64,000 nt of DNA, taken from the NCBI GenBank assembly GCA_009617715.1, contig VTFK01000328.1, positions 62,001 through 126,000 on the forward strand, written 5' to 3'. Under the pieces are notes generated by a model. The model had not been told where the DNA came from, made no database searches, and saw only the letters and a program-made list of their open reading frames with translations. This document shows positions 11,897-62,810 of this stretch, one piece after another. Both the position numbers and the translations under genes were made by a program. Numbering within the stretch: position 1 is the first letter of the stretch; every line of letters begins with the position of its first letter. This DNA is from Plectrocnemia conspersa. Lineage: Eukaryota > Arthropoda > Insecta > Trichoptera > Polycentropodidae.

Positions 11897-12271
11897 GGCG
11901 GCCGGTCAAAAGAGCGTGCGTCAAATGAGTGCTGCATTATAAGCGCTGCGTTATGAGAGCGTTTACCAAAGTAGCGCTGTAACAAAATAGCATACGTCAA
12001 ATGCGCACAGTCATATGAGCGCTTGACAAAAGAGAGCACGTCATAAGAGCGCAAAAATACTTGGAGAAAATCGAGTAATGAATATTTTAGGAATTGGGTA
12101 TGCAAAATTTAAGTAAATTGTGAGAAATTTACAAAGAATAAAAATTCACGAGATATAGGCGGTAAAATTAGTATTTTATGTGCCAAAGCGTAATGATGGA
12201 TAAAAATATTAAACAATGAAAATATTATTATTTATTAATTATTACATACATACGAAAGTATGGCTCCCCAT
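11897..12271 (+). repeat. Left terminal inverted repeat with subrepeats
   Basis: The outer ~170 bp is built from short alternating modules around AGAGCG, CGTCATAAGAGCG, CGTCAAATG and GACAAAAGAG. The inner ~200 bp is unique AT-rich sequence. A related module string is found alone at 61030-61130. Confidence 0.7.
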
Positions 12272-12287
12272 CCCATATAATATACAT

Positions 12288-13623: not shown

Positions 13624-14262
13624 CTAGCACGTAACACTAATTTCAATTATACACTGCTTAATTCTAACACATACACTAAATTACACTATCACTTTATAAT
13701 TAAAAACATCGAAAGGGATATTATTATAAACGAAAACACTTATTCGACAAAAATGTAACGAAACAATGTAACGCGCCCGATGACGCATAGCTACTGATTT
13801 TTTAAAAAATATTTCGAGATGCATAAACAAGTACAAACGAGTTCAAGGTTATGCTTCGTGTTATGTTCATATAAACCATAACGATTAAAATGTCGTGCAT
13901 CTCAGATTACAAAAAAAAATTTTTTATCAAAGGTTGACAATTTGTCTATTTTTAAAATATTTATCTCTAATTCGAATTATTTGAATGCAAGTTGTCTGCT
14001 TATTTTTAGAAAATCTATCTCTCATTCGATTTATTTTAATGAGAAAGTGACACGAAGGTCAGTCACCCTTGTAATAATGTTGACCTTCTAAACGTCGATG
14101 ATTTGAAGTTTATTTATACATATGAAAAATATTATTTAAATCTAATTTACATGTGCCAAAATTACGAACGTATCAAATGACGTTCTTCCGTTGAAAATAG
14201 TGAAAAAAATATATTTTTATTACATTTCGATTATAAGACACAGAAAATTACAACGACATTAC

Positions 14263-14360
14263 CGTGTCCTTCGGGGTGACGGGTGGGGTAGTGGGGTTAG
14301 TGGGGGCGCATCGGCGCGGCGATCTTACCGACGCTAGCGCCACGCGCCGCGCCGGTGCGA
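14263..14360 (-). other. Exon-like GC-rich insert, unit 2
   Basis: The insert occupies the same position as that of unit 1: a TTTAG acceptor, 98 nt open in one frame (2 nt plus 32 codons), then GTAATGTC. The predicted peptide is Ala/Arg/Pro-rich and unlike the unit 1 peptide. The other two frames contain stops. Both inserts end in phase 0 at the shared donor. Confidence 0.35.
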
Positions 14361-14932
14361 CTAAACACTATTATAAACACTACACTAATTTCAATTATAC
14401 ACTGCTTAATTGTAACACATACACTTAATTACACCATCACTTTATAATTAAAAAACATCGAAAGGGATATTATTATAAACAAAAACACTTATTCGACAAA
14501 AATGTAACGAAACAGTTTACGCGTCCGACGTCACATAGCTACTGATTTTTTAAAAAATATTTCGAGATGCATAAACAAGTTCAAACGAGTTCAAGGTTAT
14601 GCTTCGTGTTATGTTCATATAAATCATAACGATTAAAATGTCGTGCATCTCAGATTACAAAAAAAAAATTTTTTATCAAAGGTTGACAATTTGTCTAGTT
14701 TTAAAATATTTATCTCTAATTCGAATTATTTTAATGCAAGTTATTTGTTTATTTTTAGAATATCTATCTCTCATTCGATTTATTTTAATGCGAGAGTGAC
14801 ACGAAGTTCTAAAAGTATAATGTCGATGATTTGAAGTTTTATGTTATATAAATCTAATTTATATGTGACAAATTTACATTTTCAAATGACGTTCTTCCGT
14901 TGAAAATAGTGTAAAAAATATATAATGTTTTT

Positions 14933-15294
14933 TGGGGAGCCATACTTTCGTATGTATGGAATAATTAATAAATAATAATGTTTTCATTGCCTAATCATTA
15001 CGCTCTGCAAATAAAATACTAATTTTACCGCCTATTTCTCGTGAATTTTTATTCATTGTAAATTTCTCACAATTAACTTATATAATATTTTTTATACCTA
15101 ATTTCTAAAATATTCATTACTTGATTTTCTCCAAGTATTTTTGCGCTCTTATGACGCGCTCTTTTTTGACAAACGCTCTTATGACTGTCTGCGCATTTGA
15201 CGTACGCTATTTTGTTACAGCGCTACTTTAGTAAACGCTCTTATGACGCACGCTTATTTGTCCGCGCTCATTTGTGACGTTGTTAAAATTGCCC
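14933..15294 (-). repeat. Right terminal inverted repeat
   Basis: Mirror of 11897-12271. Three copies of GCTCTTATGACG-type modules are visible between 15147 and 15250, alternating with TTTGAC and AGCGCTAC modules. Confidence 0.7.
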
Positions 15295-26110: not shown

Positions 26111-27299
26111 ATGAAAGATGAAGCAGCTAGCGCCGATGAGGCCGCATCTAAAGAATATCCCAACATTTTAAAGGGAATTATTGAAAGAGGTGGTCATAAA
26201 CGTGAACAAGTGCTTAACGTAGACGAAACAGGGCTTTATTGGAAGCGAATACCTGATTGCACGTAGTACATTTCAAAAACCGAAAAATCTGCGCCTGGTT
26301 ACAAGGTGTCTAAAGAACGATTAACTTTGCTACTTGGTGCAAATGCCGCGGGTGATTTTAAGCTAAGACCACTTTTAATATATTTGTCCGAAAATCCAAG
26401 GCCTCTTAAAGAACTAAATAAAAATCAATTACCCGTCATATGGAGATCCAACAAGAAAGCTCGGATGACTAAAGCTACTTTAGAGGATTGGTTCAAAAAT
26501 CACTTTTGCACAGAAGTGAAAAAATATTTGCGAGACAATAACTTAAGCAACAAGGCTTTGCTAATTTTGGATAATGCACCAGGGCATCCTACTAATTTAT
26601 CCGAACTATCTGAAGATGTCATGATTGAGTACCTTCCGAAAAATACAACAGCTTTGATCCAACCAATGGATCAGGGTGCAATAGCTACTTTTAAGGCATA
26701 TCACCTACGCCGTAAATCTTCAATTAAAACATTTTGGCAAAACTATAACATCAAGGATGCTGTTGACAGCATCAGTGAATCATGGAAGGAATTAAAATTA
26801 ACAACAATGAACCATCCTTGGAAAAGAATATGGCCAGAATGTGTAAAAAGTACTGGTGCAGAAGTTAATTGCCTTCCTGAAATTAGGCAAAACATTTTGG
26901 ATCTAGCACATGATTTCGGCTTTGAAGGTTTGAACGAACGTGATGTGCTTGATCTACTTGAAGCTGATAGGGAGCCCCTTTCATATAAGGAACTCATTCA
27001 GTTGCAAGCATAACCGGCATTTGATAAAGAGACAGAGCCTGTTGTATTATGTAAAATTGTCAAAAGCTTTTTCCTATTTCGAACAAGGAATCAACATCTT
27101 CCTTGAAAACGATCCTGACGTCGAGCGTAGCGCTAAAGTTTCTTGAGGAATTAACTCAGCCATTAGCTGTTATTAATCACTGAAGAACGAAAGAGACAAA
27201 AAGGCAAGACAAACAACGTTGGACAATTTTTTTAAGCCAGGCCCATCCTTACCAGCGAAAAATGAGAACGACAGTGATCTGCAGGTTACCATTTTTTGA
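26111..27299 (+). pseudogene. Tigger (pogo-group) DDE transposase, truncated
   Basis: The frame encodes the catalytic core of a Tigger/jerky transposase: LNVDETGLYW (first D at 26222), LLILDNAPGHP (second D at 26570) and LIQPMDQGAI (third D at 26669, 32 residues on). All three aspartates are present. A TAG at 26264 interrupts the frame near the start; from 26306 it is open to 27013. A frameshift near 27013-27060 and two stops (27144, about 27168) precede a C-terminal segment with QTTLDNFFKPG (from 27210), a good PCNA-interacting-peptide match. The N-terminal helix-turn-helix/CENP-B-type domains and left terminal repeat are missing. It is dead as an autonomous element. Confidence 0.85.
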
Positions 27300-27730: not shown

Positions 27731-30153
27731 CCCTTCCAATCACATGACGCCGTCAATTCTGGATATTGCTTTGGTCAAGGGTAACTTAAATACGTCAGAA
27801 ATGTATTGCAGAGGCGTCTTCTGACCAAAGTTATTCTCGCTGGAGGGTTCAGCGGAGGTAGTCTCTGAAACGCTTTTGACTATTTAAAAGCTGACTGGAA
27901 AAAGTTTAAAGATATAGTCGAGTCTCGTTTGCAAGATGAGCGACAGAATTATACCCGCATAACATTAAACAAATTGACGATGATATCAGTTATTTAACAT
28001 CCGTTATCGAAGAAGCTAAAATATCATCAATACCGACGCGTAAAAATCATAATAATAAAAAAATCAACTTACTCCACAACTTATCGAAATAATAAAATCA
28101 AAATAAACTAAGAAAACAGTGGCAAAATAATAAATCTCCGCGACTTAAAATCTGTAATAAACCGCGTAACTAGTTATATTCGCGATAAAATTCAGCAAAT
28201 AAAAAAACGAATCGTGGACGCGTAAACTAAAAAAAATCTAAACCCGGCAGATAATTCTTATGGAAAATAACTAAATCACTTAAATATAAACATTCGGAAA
28301 TACCCCATTAAAAAAAATGGAAAATTCATCGCATGCACGAACAAGGATAAGGCAGAAAATTTAGCCAGCGCTTTCTCCACATCTTATTCGCTTAGTGTAA
28401 ATTACTTAGATTCAAAAAATAGACAACAAAGTCGCCCGTGCGATACGAAATATTAATTCATCTAGCGTAGATATTAGTTTAGTGAACAAAGTTGGTTTTC
28501 AGAAGTTAATAAACATCATAAAAAAAATTTAAAGAATAGAAAAGTCCCGGTATAGATAAATTAGATAACGTTACGATAAAACAACTTCAAGAATTAGCAT
28601 CAATTATCTAACAAATATTTTTTAATGCCTGCTTAACATTTGGAAAACCGCAAAGATCCACCCAATTAAAAAGCCAGGAAAGGATAACACTATCGCAATT
28701 AATTATAAATGATTACCGTCATTCAGTAAACTATTTGAAAAAAATAATTTTATCACGTTTAAAGGATCTTTTGGGAATAAAATTATCAATGAACAATTTG
28801 GCTTCCGCGAAAACCAACGACTCATCAGCTCAATAGGTTAACAGAACACATCTCTGCTAATTTTAACATGAAAAAATCAACGGGACTCTTAATGTTAGAT
28901 GTGGAAAAAGCGTTTGATACTGTGTGGCATGATGGATTGATTTACAAACTCCACAAATATAAAACCCCTAACTATCTGCTACACTTGTTACGCTCCTACC
29001 TTGATCGTCGAAGTTATGTTGTTTCAGTAAATAATGAACAATCGATACCGCGTAATATCCCAGCTGGTGTTCCTCAGGGGAGTTTACTTGGACCGTTCCT
29101 TTTCATTTTGTACACAAATGATATACCTATTTTAAAAAATACTTGTCTTTCAATGTATGCCGATGATACGGCGATAATGAGTAGCTCTTACGGTCTTAAG
29201 CCTATTTCAATAAAATTGCAAAAATCCTTAACTCTCTTAAGTAATTATTTCAAAAAAGTGAAAAAAATAAAAATAAATCAGGACAAAACGGAGGCTATTT
29301 TTTTACAACTCGAAGACAACCTTTGCCCCCCGACTATTATAAGCGAGCAGGGAAAGTGTATAGAATGGAAGGCGAGCTACCTCGGAATTCACCTGGACTC
29401 CAAGCTTAAATTTAATAAACATATAACCGAACTTAAATCTAAAGGGCTCGCAGCCATTGCGGCGTTAAAACCAATTTTTTAATCGAAAAAAAGTGCGCTA
29501 AATACTAAAAATAAAATTCTATTATATAAGCAATTAATCAGACCGGCAATGACTTACGCCTGCCCAGTGTGGAGTAATACGTGTAATACTAACTTTTCTA
29601 AGCTACAAGTTGTTCAAAATAAAGCTATAAAATAATTTATAATACACCTTTTTTATACTAACCTCAAAAAAAACTTCATAATAAATATTTATTTAATTCC
29701 AACTATTAAAGAACATGTTCACCACCATACTAATAATTATTATAAAAAAAATACCGCGAAATCATACTAACCCGTTAATCTCAAGAATCGGTGATTACGA
29801 CAAAAAACAAACTCAAATTTAAATATAAACACAAAATGCCAAAGCACATCTTGCTCTGACGCATAAATTTTATCTATTAATTTAACATCCAGGTCCACGA
29901 GTTTTATATTAAAAATATATAATTTATAATTTTTTTTTTTTTTTTTTGTTAAAGGTGTTTATGTACTTTGACCTAAACTTAACGTATTTTATGTTCTTTT
30001 ATTATTCCTATTTTTTGTAATTCCTCTTAATTTAGCTAATCAATCGTAAATTGTGATAATGGTAATTAACCAGCAACCAATGAAATGTAAATATATATGT
30101 TTATAAAAATGTATTATTTAATTATGTAATAAACAAAAATTAAAAAAAAAAAA
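27731..30153 (+). mobile_element. Jockey-like non-LTR retrotransposon, 5'-truncated
   Basis: The insertion is bounded by a 23-bp target duplication and ends in a run of 12 A. It begins inside the endonuclease domain: SILDIALVKG is visible near 27759-27788, the C-terminal end of the APE-type endonuclease. The linker follows (ADWKKFKDIVESRLQ, SYLTSVIEEAKISS), then reverse transcriptase and a degraded C-terminal region (IRPAMTYACPVWSN). An internal T-rich run lies near 29930-29947. Truncation with TSD and poly-A is the hallmark of target-primed reverse transcription. Confidence 0.9.
28868..29482 (+). CDS. Reverse transcriptase domain of the Jockey-like LINE
   Basis: This is 204 uninterrupted codons. 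Motif A is LLMLDVEKAFDTVWHDGL, motif B is AGVPQGSLLGPFLFILYTND, motif C is MYADDTAIM (catalytic YADD), then TEAIFL and YLGIHLDSKLKF. The fingers region upstream (FSKLF, NEQFGF) is broken by frame changes, and the frame ends in TAA at 29480. The palm is therefore readable, but the polyprotein is not intact. It would copy LINE RNA at a nicked target; this copy is almost certainly inactive. Confidence 0.85.
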   Translation: MKKSTGLLMLDVEKAFDTVWHDGLIYKLHKYKTPNYLLHLLRSYLDRRSYVVSVNNEQSIPRNIPAGVPQGSLLGPFLFILYTNDIPILKNTCLSMYADDTAIMSSSYGLKPISIKLQKSLTLLSNYFKKVKKIKINQDKTEAIFLQLEDNLCPPTIISEQGKCIEWKASYLGIHLDSKLKFNKHITELKSKGLAAIAALKPIF

Positions 30154-34659: not shown

Positions 34660-35070
34660 GAAATATAGTTAGAGTTTTATTAAATAATACAACTGTGACA
34701 GACGATAAATGGCGAGATGTTTTCTCCGAGCGGTGGTGGAGAAGATGGCGCAGGGATGATGTCCATGGGTGGTCCTCGGCTTAGCAGCGACAGTATAGTG
34801 GAGGATGATACTTTTATGCTCGTATGGAGGAATCATGTCTCTGAGTGGCTGCTTGTGCCCTTTCCTCATCGGAGTCCAGGCTTAAGTATTCAGGGGTGCA
34901 AAGCTTGCTGACCAACAACCATCACGCAGCCATTATCCAGCCAATGGATGTACTCGTTTCTTAGAACAGGGAAATAGGTATACGCCTTTAGAAAGCAACA
35001 TTAGCTTGATATGCATTGTCCAAGATCGTATGATGTAACGGAAAATTTTTATTGAATTTATCAAACAATA
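34660..35070 (+). repeat. Dispersed repeat family A, copy 2
   Basis: It contains GATAAATGGCGAGATGTTTTC, GAGCGGTGGTGGAGAAG, CTCATCGGAGTCCAGG, CAAAGCTTGCTGACCAA and GCATTGTCCAAGATCGTA in the same order as the copy at 62230. It sits directly beside the truncated LINE fragment at 35098-35250. The two short overlapping frames on opposite strands are compositional. Confidence 0.65.
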
Positions 35071-37885: not shown

Positions 37886-38133
37886 ATAACGGCTTTTAAA
37901 AAAATTGCAAATCTTCCACTTTAAACTTTGACGCGGCTGTATATTTTTAACGAACGGCATAAAGTTATCGTTGGTGGCTTTGGTTTGCAAGGGAGTAGAA
38001 GATAAGTTTATATGTATTAGTTCAGTTAATATATAGTAGCTGTTATAAGTAGTTATACAAGAAAACAATCTTTAAAGTTATTAATAAACATTGAATAAGC
38101 TTTTGACACTATTTTGTAATAATGAAACTTCAA

Positions 38134-38157
38134 TTTATTTAAAAAAATAAATTTATT
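38134..38157 (-). terminator. Poly-A signals of the ten-exon gene
   Basis: Two AATAAA hexamers on the minus strand, at 38152-38157 and 38134-38139, lie 16 and 34 nt beyond the stop codon at 38173-38175. Confidence 0.55.
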
Positions 38158-38172
38158 ATAAAATTCTTTAAA

Positions 38173-40235
38173 TTATTCTACGTTACGATACATAAACTTA
38201 TGGGTTCTAATCATTGTTGTCATCATATCATGTACTGTTTTGATGCAATTTTTGTAATGTTTACACACTTTAAATAAATTTAAAAGTTTTTCTTCCAGCG
38301 CCTGTTTAGCGATTAACTTTTCTCTTTTGAGTTCACTTGAGGTTTCAATACCTTCTTCGAAAATAAATTCTTCTTTTATATTGATATTTTCTTTAGGTTC
38401 TTCATTTTTTCAATGTAGTATTTTCATTATAATCGTATTCAATGAAATCAGAATCACTGTAATATAAATATTTATTACAAAGTTTATTAACATTATTGTC
38501 AACTGTATTTTTTTTAAATAAAGTCATACTCAAAATATTCTCGATATTCTTCGTTAATCTCTATAAATTTATCGTTGTTATTTTTTTCCTTCTAAGTAAT
38601 GACGAGAACTTATTGGTTCTGGAATTATGCTTTCATTTTTTATGGCAACTTCTTCATTTTTTATGACAACTTTTTCATTTTGTATGGCAGCTTCTTCTTT
38701 TTTTATAAGACTATAAATAACACAATAATAGATTAAATACTAATTTAATGTTATTATTATTTTAAATACAAATATATAAATATTACCTTAAATATTTTAA
38801 ATTACTTAGTTTTCGCTGTTCTCTCTGTTTATTAAAAATCGTATTTTCAGTCATATTAGTTTTTCTTTTATTTCTTTTTCTACGTTGCTCTTTTTTTCTA
38901 TTTGAAATTTTTCTGTAAATAGTTTGATTTAACGTTTGATATTTAACATATATGATTCAAAATACATTACTTAAAATGTTTCGTATCCTCTAGTTTCCTA
39001 TGCTCCTTTTTTACTTTATTTTCAGTCCATTTATAATTCATTTTTACGTCTTTTTCAGATTCTTCAGTATTTGTATCGGCAGTCATATTCGACATTTCGC
39101 TGTAAATCGTTTATTAATTTTTTTTATTAAGATATTGGATAATATTTAGATGTACTCAAAATATATTTTTACCCAAAAAGCTCTAAATTCCTTTGTCTTT
39201 GGCGCTCTTTCTGTAGATATGGGTTTTTTTTATTTTTTTCTATTTTATGCCTTTTCTTTACTACTTTCTCAGGTTCCTCGATTTTTATTGTGCACTCTGT
39301 ACTAGTATCACTATTTGACGGTAATCTGCAAATAACGTTAAATAAATTTTATATTAATTTAATAATTATATTTTTACTCAAAGTACTCTGAATTTTCAAG
39401 TCCTTGATGCTTTTTCTGTAGATGAGAGTCTATTTTATTTTCACTTTTTTGATACTTTCTCTTAACTACTATTTTAGGTTCCCTGATTTGAATTAAAAAT
39501 ATCGTATTAGCGTCAATGCATTATTTAAATATTTATTAACTTGAATTTAAAAAATATATATTCTTACTTATTATATCTTTCATGATGAATTACTGTTTTT
39601 TTAGATCCTTTGGTTTTTATAATGCACTTGTTACTGTCATCTTTATTTATGATTTCTCTGCAAATCACTCATAAAATTATTTTTTAAAAAACGCTTAAGA
39701 GTTATTAAAATTAATATTTTTACCTCAAATAATCATCTTGATGACAGGATGGTCTTTTATTTTCAGTCCTTTGATAATTTCCCATGATTTCTTTTTGTTG
39801 CACCTTGGATTTTAAAGGATATTTTCTAATAAAATCCTCATTTTTTATTTTTCTATAAATTTTCCAATAAATTAATAATTATGACGCTTAAAAGATTTTG
39901 TGTATGTCTTACTTAAAATATTTCGAATTGTTCAGTGAAAAGTTTTCACTTTCATGATGCTTTTTGGGGTATGTTATTTTTTCAGTCTTTTCCTCTTTTA
40001 TCTTGAATTCTCTTTCACGTTTCTCTTTGTTTATTACATTTTTTTCATCATAACCGCATTCATTTGAATATATCTTTGAACTTCTGCACCGTTTATGCTT
40101 TTCACTACAAAATAAACATAACACGTATTAATCCATTAGATTATAATAATAAACATAATTAAATATATTGACTCACTGGTACTTTGACTCCTTTTCTTTA
40201 TCTTCATAGTGAGCACTTCTATTATGTTTTGGCAT
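38173..40235 (-). CDS. Novel ten-exon gene with symmetric phase-2 exons
   Basis: Exons (minus, coding): 40177-40235, 39913-40104, 39724-39852, 39568-39657, 39378-39482, 39173-39325, 38971-39099, 38787-38912, 38530-38710, 38173-38456. Every junction is GT-AG, all nine introns are 52-85 nt and all are phase 2. The frame begins MPKHNRSAHYEDKEK and would give about 481 residues. Exons 2, 3 and 5-9 end in related tails (KYFK, DYLR, EYFE, ELFG, KHFK, KYLR, EYFE), and several carry a TENK or SENK motif and a Q-K-x-H/E-R block, so they look duplicated from one ancestor. The protein is K/E/N-rich, has a basic cluster in exon 8 (KKEQRRKRNKRK, possible nuclear signal) and no visible signal peptide or membrane segment. 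The last exon ends in a more ordinary helical segment (LLNLFKVCKHYKNC). One extra A at 38581-38587 and one at 38405-38410 break the frame. I do not recognise the family. Confidence 0.72.
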
Positions 40236-44333: not shown

Positions 44334-45470
44334 GAAAACAAATTTTAAATTTATAAAACATAAAAAAAAAAAGTATATATACATAAATATAAAAATACTT
44401 AAACATAACAAAAAAATTATAAAATATTAAAATTAAATGAAATAAACCGGATCAGCTCCTCGTAGCTGACATTAAATAGGTCAATATGTAATGCCAGCGT
44501 ATTAAGGAGCCGGATGGCCACAGCCATAGGCGAGTCGGCAAGTGCGGATGTCTAGCCCTAACGGTCATCAAAGAGGTCTCGATCGTGATTCTCGAAAATG
44601 TTCAGGAACCCAAAACTGGAATTCCTCGAGAATAGCTGGATTGTCGACAGCACCTTTTAGTAATTTAAAAAAATGCTTAGCGATATACAGCTTTCTGCGA
44701 GAACTCAGCGAATCATATCCCAACGCTCCTAAAAGAAAGGCGCTGGGATATAAGTACGGATAATAACCAAATGTCCTTTTGTAAAGGTATCTTAAATGTC
44801 TTTTCGTAAAGGTTTGAATTTTTTTTACTAAAATGGAATATTTGGCTATTCGGGGGATTCCAAATTATATATCCCGATTCAAGAATGCTACGAACTAAGG
44901 TGTCATAGAGGATGCGAATAACTGACGGATCGTCAAAGTGAAAGGCATTCCTCATAACAAAGCCGAGCATCTTGGAAGATTTATCACAGACGTCGTGTAT
45001 GTGTAGAGAGAACCTCCATTTGCTCTCGAAAGTGATTCCGAGATCTTTAATGGAAGTTTCTCTAGTCAAAATGTTACCACCGAGATGGTAGAAATAAGCT
45101 GATGGCGAACGGGATCGAGAAAAATGACACAGTATGGCACTTTCCGACACTAAAGGGCAGACGGTTAACGGAAGCCCATCTCCACAGAGAGTCTAAATCA
45201 CTTTGTAGAGAAGGAGTCCGCAACAGATCGAATGCATTTTATATAATTTTAAATCATCTGCGTACAGAAGAAAACTTGAATGTTTAATTGCAGTATTTAT
45301 GTCATTAATAAATAACACAAAAAGCAGAGGTCCCAGATTGGATCCTTGAGGAACCCCCGAAGGGGTAAAATATTCCTTTGACAATCGGCCACCATACGTT
45401 ACAAACTGTCTACGATCGCTCAAAATGTAGAGGTATCGTGGACACTTAAATGCAGATTCATCAATCCCAA
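44289..45470 (-). mobile_element. LINE B, longest copy (CR1/Jockey-group)
   Basis: On the minus strand the fragment starts within the reverse transcriptase: TPSGVPQGSNLGPLLFVLFI (motif B) and LLYADDLKLY (motif C) are at 45423-45220. After frame changes the rest of the palm and thumb follows: KDLGITFESKWRFSLHIHDV, LVRSILESGYIIWNPP and YPSAFLLGALGYDSLSSRR. It continues through a 3' UTR to a hairpin at 44289-44333 and a (TAAA)-like tail. The 5' two thirds (endonuclease, fingers) are absent. Two or more frameshifts inactivate it. The exact clade is not resolvable by eye. Confidence 0.8.
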
Positions 45471-45601
45471 ATGTGATATTTTATAATATTATAATATTTA
45501 GACCTGAAATGATCCCGATCTGTTCAAAGTAAATAAACTGTTCTCAACATGTTTTCAATTACCAACACATTGAATAGCGGGCATTATTCCTAAAAATGAA
45601 G

Positions 45602-62229: not shown

Positions 62230-62810
62230 ATTATATTTATAATTATTGCGACAGGCGATAAATGGCGAGATGTTTTCTCCGAGCGGTGGTGGAGAAGCTG
62301 GTGCAGGGATGATGTCCGTGGGAGGTCCTTGGAGGGCAAGTAGGTGGCGTGGTAGCGAGTGTACAGCGGAAGTTGATTCTTCTATTCTACGATGGTGCTC
62401 GGTATGAAGGAGTTACTCTTAGGATGTAAGCGCCCATGAGAGTATGTTTTCCGCGGGTGGCGGGCGTCTGCTGGTCTCTTCGAGTGACTGCTGGTGACTG
62501 CCTGACTACCTTCTCCTCATCAAAGTCCAAGTTTAACTATCCAGAGCTTCAAAGCTTGCTGACCAATAGCAATTATGCAGCGATTATTCATCCAAACGCT
62601 GTAGTCGAAATGAGTATACGATTTTAGAAAGCGACGTTCGCTTGATGGGCATTGTCCAAGGTCGTATTGAATTCCAACGGGAATCTTGTGGATCTGGTGA
62701 TTTATTATATCCGTGACCGTTTCACAACAAAGACATATTCTTTCAATGACGGAGAATATTTACAGTAAGAACAAAACTCGTGTTATTACAAGATTTTTTC
62801 TGGATGTAAC
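62230..62810 (+). repeat. Dispersed repeat family A, longest copy
   Basis: It contains GATAAATGGCGAGATGTTTTC, GAGCGGTGGTGGAGAAG, CAAAGCTTGCTGACCAA, GCATTGTCCAAGGTCGTA, CCGTGACCGTTTCAC and ends near AACAAAACTCGTGTTATTAC. A 100-bp segment near 62340-62460 is absent from copy 2. There are no long frames. Confidence 0.65.

Follow-up and report, generated by a model that had tools for sequence, protein, structure and literature searches.

In a 64,000-nucleotide stretch of the genome of Plectrocnemia conspersa (contig VTFK01000328.1, positions 62,001 to 126,000 of the forward strand; hereafter the window), the minus strand carries a chain of ten exons that runs from window position 40235 down to 38174. 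We interpret it, with a probability of about 0.5, as a real, lineage-restricted orphan gene that has grown by tandem duplication of symmetric phase-2 exons and whose product is most likely a nuclear scaffold. The genome comprises 393 Mb in 959 contigs, and the window lies on the contig referred to below as C327. The gene consists of the following features, given in window positions.

Exon 1, 40177..40235, minus strand: 59 nucleotides (nt); TAA directly before the ATG; ends in phase 2 with two codon bases left; donor GTGAGT
Exon 2, 39913..40104, minus strand: 192 nt, symmetric (2-2), tail KYFK; at best a weak member of the repeat
Exon 3, 39724..39852, minus strand: 129 nt, symmetric (2-2), tail DYLR; weak copy of the repeat unit
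Exon 4, 39568..39657, minus strand: 90 nt, symmetric (2-2); no match to the repeat profile
Exon 5, 39378..39482, minus strand: 105 nt, copy of the repeat unit
Exon 6, 39173..39325, minus strand: 153 nt, copy of the repeat unit
Exon 7, 38971..39099, minus strand: 129 nt, copy of the repeat unit
Exon 8, 38787..38912, minus strand: 126 nt, related to the repeat; basic cluster RKK, RRKR, KRK
Exon 9 as drawn, 38530..38710, minus strand: 181 nt; 21-nt tandem repeat inside; interrupted frame
Exon 10 as drawn, 38174..38456, minus strand: interrupted frame; 78-codon open frame at its end
C-terminal open frame, 38176..38409, minus strand: 78 codons, ends the gene
Two AATAAA polyadenylation-type signals, 38134..38157, minus strand: first bases at 38157 and 38139

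The nine GT-AG introns of 52-85 nt that an earlier note on this DNA had proposed were all recovered (72, 60, 66, 85, 52, 73, 58, 76 and 73 nt, in order). The likeness of the splice sites that it described is also borne out: seven of nine donors start with GTAA, and TTTNYAG is found at 7/9 acceptors. Exons 1 to 8 (40235-38787) are joined by introns that are all in phase 2, and exons 2 to 8 are all open, with lengths that are multiples of three throughout (mean 132 nt, range 90-192). The whole gene spans 2.1 kb, with exons of 59-283 nt. Phase 2 had been claimed for every intron; this stands for the junctions of exons 1 to 8, whereas exons 9 and 10 conform only when some of their sequence is read in a different frame.

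A DNA alignment of exons 5 and 6 shows 72% identity across 126 nt and runs past the donor into the intron (blastn E 1.5e-13). The protein scores of the pairs 5-6, 5-7 and 6-7 exceed those of all 500 shuffles and the pairs 3-7 and 4-6 exceed 497 of 500; the other 16 pairs among exons 2 to 8 are weaker. Membership of the repeat was assessed with a profile built from exons 5 to 7, scored against 1,000 shuffles per exon. No shuffle was as good as exon 8, 10 were as good as exon 3 and 71 as good as exon 2, which is a weak member. Exons 1, 4, 9 and 10 were not matched by this profile (962 of the 1,000 shuffles were as good as exon 4, and 485 and 658 as good as exon 9). The related tails noted earlier are confirmed by a tyrosine two codons ahead of the split codon in six of the eight exons 2 to 9, exon 9 being read in the frame of its EYFE tail (binomial P ~3e-7). 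Judged by these alignments, exons 5, 6 and 7 are true duplicates, exon 8 is a likely copy and exon 3 a weak one; beyond the middle of the gene, the tails alone suggest duplication. The idea that units of exon plus intron had been duplicated thus holds for exons 5-7, where the match of exons 5 and 6 crosses the donor; exon 8 is a relative of the repeat, exon 3 a weak one, and exons 2, 4 and 9 are not demonstrable copies. Separate from the exon repeat, exon 9 contains a 21-nt tandem repeat of 3.6 copies (38632-38706), which is an in-frame repeat of seven codons.

Proteins lengthened by tandem duplication of symmetric exons form a general class, in which frame-preserving exon copies are found together with intron ends. 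The present gene resembles this class in its frame-preserving copies and matches no Pfam family at the cut-off. Two features of tandem exon-duplication genes are seen in it, namely DNA similarity between adjacent exons that includes a splice site (exons 5 and 6) and symmetric phase (exons 2 to 8). In the mechanism that we propose, an intron-flanked exon would have been duplicated in tandem, and because both of its ends are in phase 2, each added copy would have kept the reading frame.

Exon chains were scored under fixed rules: donors GT[AG][AGT], acceptors YAG, introns of 48-90 nt and exons of 45-260 nt, the score being the longest run of internal exons in a single phase. The longest such chain in the window is the present gene, with seven internal exons and 924 nt. 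The remaining five combinations of strand and phase give two or three exons, one of the three-exon chains being antisense to the gene, and with the gene masked the longest chain on the minus strand has two. Among 3,000 Markov surrogates generated from the region, half of order 2 and half of order 3, the best of the three phases reached a maximum of four exons, in one surrogate, and 27 gave three. The same rules applied to 22 flank loci of 10 kb each (220 kb) gave at most five, in a locus with an open frame of 468 codons. At the fixed rules, the exon chain of the gene is not a chance arrangement. Exons 1 to 8 have 28% G+C against 18% in the seven introns between them, and their coding strand is rich in A (51% A, 21% T), whereas these introns are even (41/41). 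A codon-position test was best in the predicted frame for all seven internal exons, the same exons having trained the test. The segments 9a, 9b, 10a and 10b around the breaks of exons 9 and 10, which were not used for training, also scored best in their own frames (4/4, with a small margin for 9b). An open frame of at least 78 codons, as at the end of exon 10, arose in 16 of 2,000 surrogates of 38100-38530.

Exons 1 to 8 encode 320 whole residues, with 19.7% lysine, 12.5% glutamate and 9.1% asparagine; cysteine makes up 1.6% and by eye shows no repeat arrangement. The absence of a signal peptide stated in the earlier note was confirmed by hydropathy: the best mean over 15 residues is -0.87 within the first 30 windows and -0.21 anywhere in exons 1 to 8, so that by this measure there is neither a signal peptide at the first ATG nor a hydrophobic stretch in these exons. 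The basic cluster reported for exon 8 is likewise present. For the 78-residue C-terminal end, a single helix is predicted over residues 25-77, with block values of the predicted local distance difference test (pLDDT) of 73-98, pLDDT of at least 90 in 44 of 78 residues and a predicted template modelling score of 0.52 (single-sequence prediction). The product of exons 1 to 8 would be a K/E-rich, probably disordered chain with a basic cluster, in which the unit [S/T]ENK ... QK.[H/E]R ... Y[F/L] recurs. Such a protein would most likely act as a nuclear scaffold that binds nucleic acid or chromatin: its repeats would provide multiple weak binding sites, and the C-terminal helix would serve for pairing or anchoring.

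Several observations count against this interpretation. The gene is known here from DNA sequence alone. The proposal that all ten exons share one frame does not hold: the frame entered in exon 9 ends at a TAA at 38580, with the EYFE tail in a different frame, the frame entered in exon 10 ends after 17 codons at a TGA at 38404 and the 78-codon end again lies in another, and in both exons coding-like sequence goes on in other frames. With looser rules (introns of 45-120 nt, exons from 30 nt), chains of 9, 8 and 7 exons appear in the flank loci L039 and L033; these rules were scored on the flanks and the gene itself at the strict rules only, so that the chain test is valid at the rules stated. 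The flank loci with long chains contain open frames of 336-542 codons, and we take the chains to thread through these frames. The product is basic, probably disordered and probably nuclear, the last being drawn from its composition and one basic cluster. Between exons 5 and 6 (34 codons), nonsynonymous and synonymous divergence (dN and dS) are 0.37 and 0.51 by NG86 (ratio 0.72), and 0.41 and 0.35 by LWL85 (ratio 1.17). At the level of these two exons, the divergence is compatible with weak constraint or none, and no strong constraint is visible.

The remaining difficulty is that no relatives were found. Exons 1-9a were compared with a collection of 5.8 billion proteins, in which candidates must share 5-residue words; none of 2,151 candidates reached E <= 10, and neither did any of the 83 candidates for the C-terminal part. 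As a control, the jockey-like reverse transcriptase of the window matched 226 proteins, including some of Ranatra chinensis and Acyrthosiphon, and the collection therefore represents insects. In the 393-Mb genome itself, where the DNA and protein searches scored the best candidates only, no paralogue was detected: the protein matches its own locus alone (nine matches), and the DNA of exon 3 is found in one place. The C-terminal part matches itself and, weakly, a locus on contig C739 (L012, E 3.53). In a tblastn search with nine pieces (exons 1 to 8 and the 78-codon end) over 29 loci (244 kb, including 22 flanks), with composition correction off, L012 was again best (E 2.6e-4, for a set of this small size), and exon 8 gave a match at E 4.0e-4 that crosses a stop within a lysine run. 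The L012 match, which has an open frame of 70 codons and no exon chain on either strand (at most two exons), was taken as chance. Pfam gave no match to exons 1-9a at E <= 1 and, for the C-terminal part, a sub-threshold hit to PF02246 only (E 0.036; 14.5 bits, the cut-off being 25). Among solved structures there was none for exons 1-9a at E <= 1, and matches of the C-terminal part were at chance level (best E 1.1). Rfam at gathering scores matched nothing within the window, and none of 13 pattern matches of exons 5-7 in viral contigs was confirmed. The earlier note had named the lack of any homologue or transcript in close relatives as a refuting condition; measured against it, the negative searches of this genome and of the protein collection leave the gene unproven, not refuted.

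The interruption of exons 9 and 10 in the assembled copy may reflect either assembly errors at short A-runs or decay of the gene. With decay, the locus would be a recently dead or dying copy and the two breaks inactivating changes, which we regard as possible, if doubtful. The 181 nt of exon 9 are not a multiple of three, the frames entered stop in both exons, and the four segments around the breaks are still coding-like in their own frames. In the flanks, 15 open frames of 298-610 codons (19.7 kb in total) are intact and demonstrate an assembly without pervasive errors. However, with only 10 A/T runs of at least six among them, and having been picked for openness, they hardly test assembly errors at A-runs. 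Against decay, both breaks lie close to short A-runs, where assemblies also err, and exons 1 to 8 are fully open across 983 nt in spite of nine A-runs of 6-8. A short intron inside exon 9 could also remove its break; 17 candidates were counted, an open frame not being required, and none has a GTR donor.

A conserved insect gene, for example for a kinetochore protein, a chromatin protein or a splicing factor, whose relatives have diverged too far for a word-based search, would explain the lack of homologues in another way, and we consider it unlikely. Disordered chains rich in K, E and N lose 5-residue words fast, and a basic, repeat-bearing chain with a C-terminal helix would suit a gene of this kind. 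Yet neither exons 1-9a nor the C-terminal part by itself found a protein at E <= 10 in a collection that holds insects, and exons 1-9a are without a Pfam match at E <= 1.

The uniform phase also recalls the bicycle genes, a family of effector genes. These genes have internal exons in phase 2, about 17 exons on average with a minimum of five, a secretion signal and usually CYC motifs; they are enriched in salivary glands, and their internal exons are unusually small (PMC9168663). Saposin-like helical bundles are a further feature of the family, whereas the 78-residue end of the present product is predicted as a single helix. Like bicycle and megacycle genes, the present gene has a run of internal phase-2 exons, diverges fast and lacks similarity to known proteins, and like megacycle genes it changes size through internal tandem duplication (PMC9168663, PMC13041983). 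A divergent bicycle-type effector that has lost its cysteines is nonetheless quite improbable. In its favour, exons 2 to 8 share phase 2, a structural trait that is telling for bicycle genes (PMC9168663), the ratio of dN to dS between exons 5 and 6 is high, and a bicycle protein without cysteines, g2703, is known, which does have a secretion signal and saposin-like folds (PMC13041983). In the present gene, by contrast, hydropathy finds no N-terminal secretion signal, which a distant signal exon might still supply. Seven hydrophobic ATG starts lie within 4.3 kb upstream, of which four are without a phase-2 GTR donor and three (44406, 44384 and 42737) each have one of poor consensus, and a signal exon in this interval is unlikely. 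CYC motifs were not seen by eye, and the product is hydrophilic, basic and K/E-rich. The gene has ten exons, with internal exons of 90-192 nt and a mean of 132 nt for exons 2 to 8. We detected no second member in the genome, whereas genomes with any candidates are reported to have from 2, in Ericerus pela, up to 653, in Hormaphis cornu, and the same source gives putative homologues for aphids, phylloxerids and coccids only (PMC9168663). We have not filed the gene as a bicycle gene; a role as a secreted effector finds no support, and the bicycle-type reading hangs on intron phase alone.

The KQY/KHI cassette effectors of the pea aphid share several small exons and the lack of a known domain with the present gene. 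They have a conserved signal peptide, extend over ~9-88 kb with introns of up to 43 kb, and in KQY1a 33 of 37 exons do not exceed 15 nt (PMC7495047). The gene described here differs in its length of 2.1 kb and its introns of 52-85 nt, and lacks both the shared signal peptide (by hydropathy) and the combination of miniature exons with a length of many kb. No matching published case was recognised in the literature searched, although one may be in print.

Still less probable is a broader scenario, in which a non-secreted, nuclear, cysteine-poor array of phase-2 exons arose and expanded in one insect lineage, possibly sharing its exon module with bicycle-type secreted genes, so that one frame-preserving cassette would have given rise to both intracellular and secreted orphans. 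Least probable of all is that open frames arising by chance, or the decayed remains of a transposable element, were mistaken for a gene: element fragments do occur in the window, where one of eight scanned proteins is a DDE_1 transposase and two are reverse transcriptases, but the chain statistics, composition and frame tests argue against this, as does a single genomic place by DNA (exon 3) and by protein (among the best candidates scored). Overall, we read the gene as one of an ordinary kind, an orphan lengthened by symmetric-exon duplication and possibly broken.

Several other elements were identified in the window and its surroundings. The transposase is encoded by a 248-codon open frame at 26267-27010 (DDE_1, PF03184, E 9e-37), which we take to belong to a Tigger/pogo-like element. 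The reverse transcriptase fragments lie at 28793-29479 and 45196-45480 (PF00078, E 5e-27 and 5e-10); the former is jockey-like, its best named relative being from Ranatra chinensis (43% identity). Long inverted repeats at 12007-12284 and 14919-15188, with arms of 77-102 nt that are 87-94% complementary, flank ~2.6-3 kb and enclose a direct duplication of 748-749 nt (13634-14809); the arrangement resembles that of a DNA transposon bearing long terminal inverted repeats. A dispersed repeat, with pieces 77-92% alike in both orientations, occurs at 34694-34956, 62247-62607 and 1256-1344. Some 90-150 kb beyond the downstream end of the window, the loci L034-L039 (C327:216001-276000) contain a cluster of serine-protease-like open frames; all four that were scanned have a Trypsin domain and three a GD_N domain (PF16030, as in gastrulation defective). 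A GroEL search of the genome gave nine matches. Four fall within a single Hsp60 gene of the host, which has short introns, the remaining five are weak and lie on five further contigs, and no symbiont gene was seen.

If the gene is expressed, it would represent a compact orphan gene caught in the course of its extension by symmetric-exon duplication, in which the DNA of exons 5 and 6 can still be aligned into the intron. Its structure is also a caution against identifying bicycle-type effectors by uniform phase-2 exons alone, as the same arrangement is possible in a gene without a visible secretion signal or a detected family.
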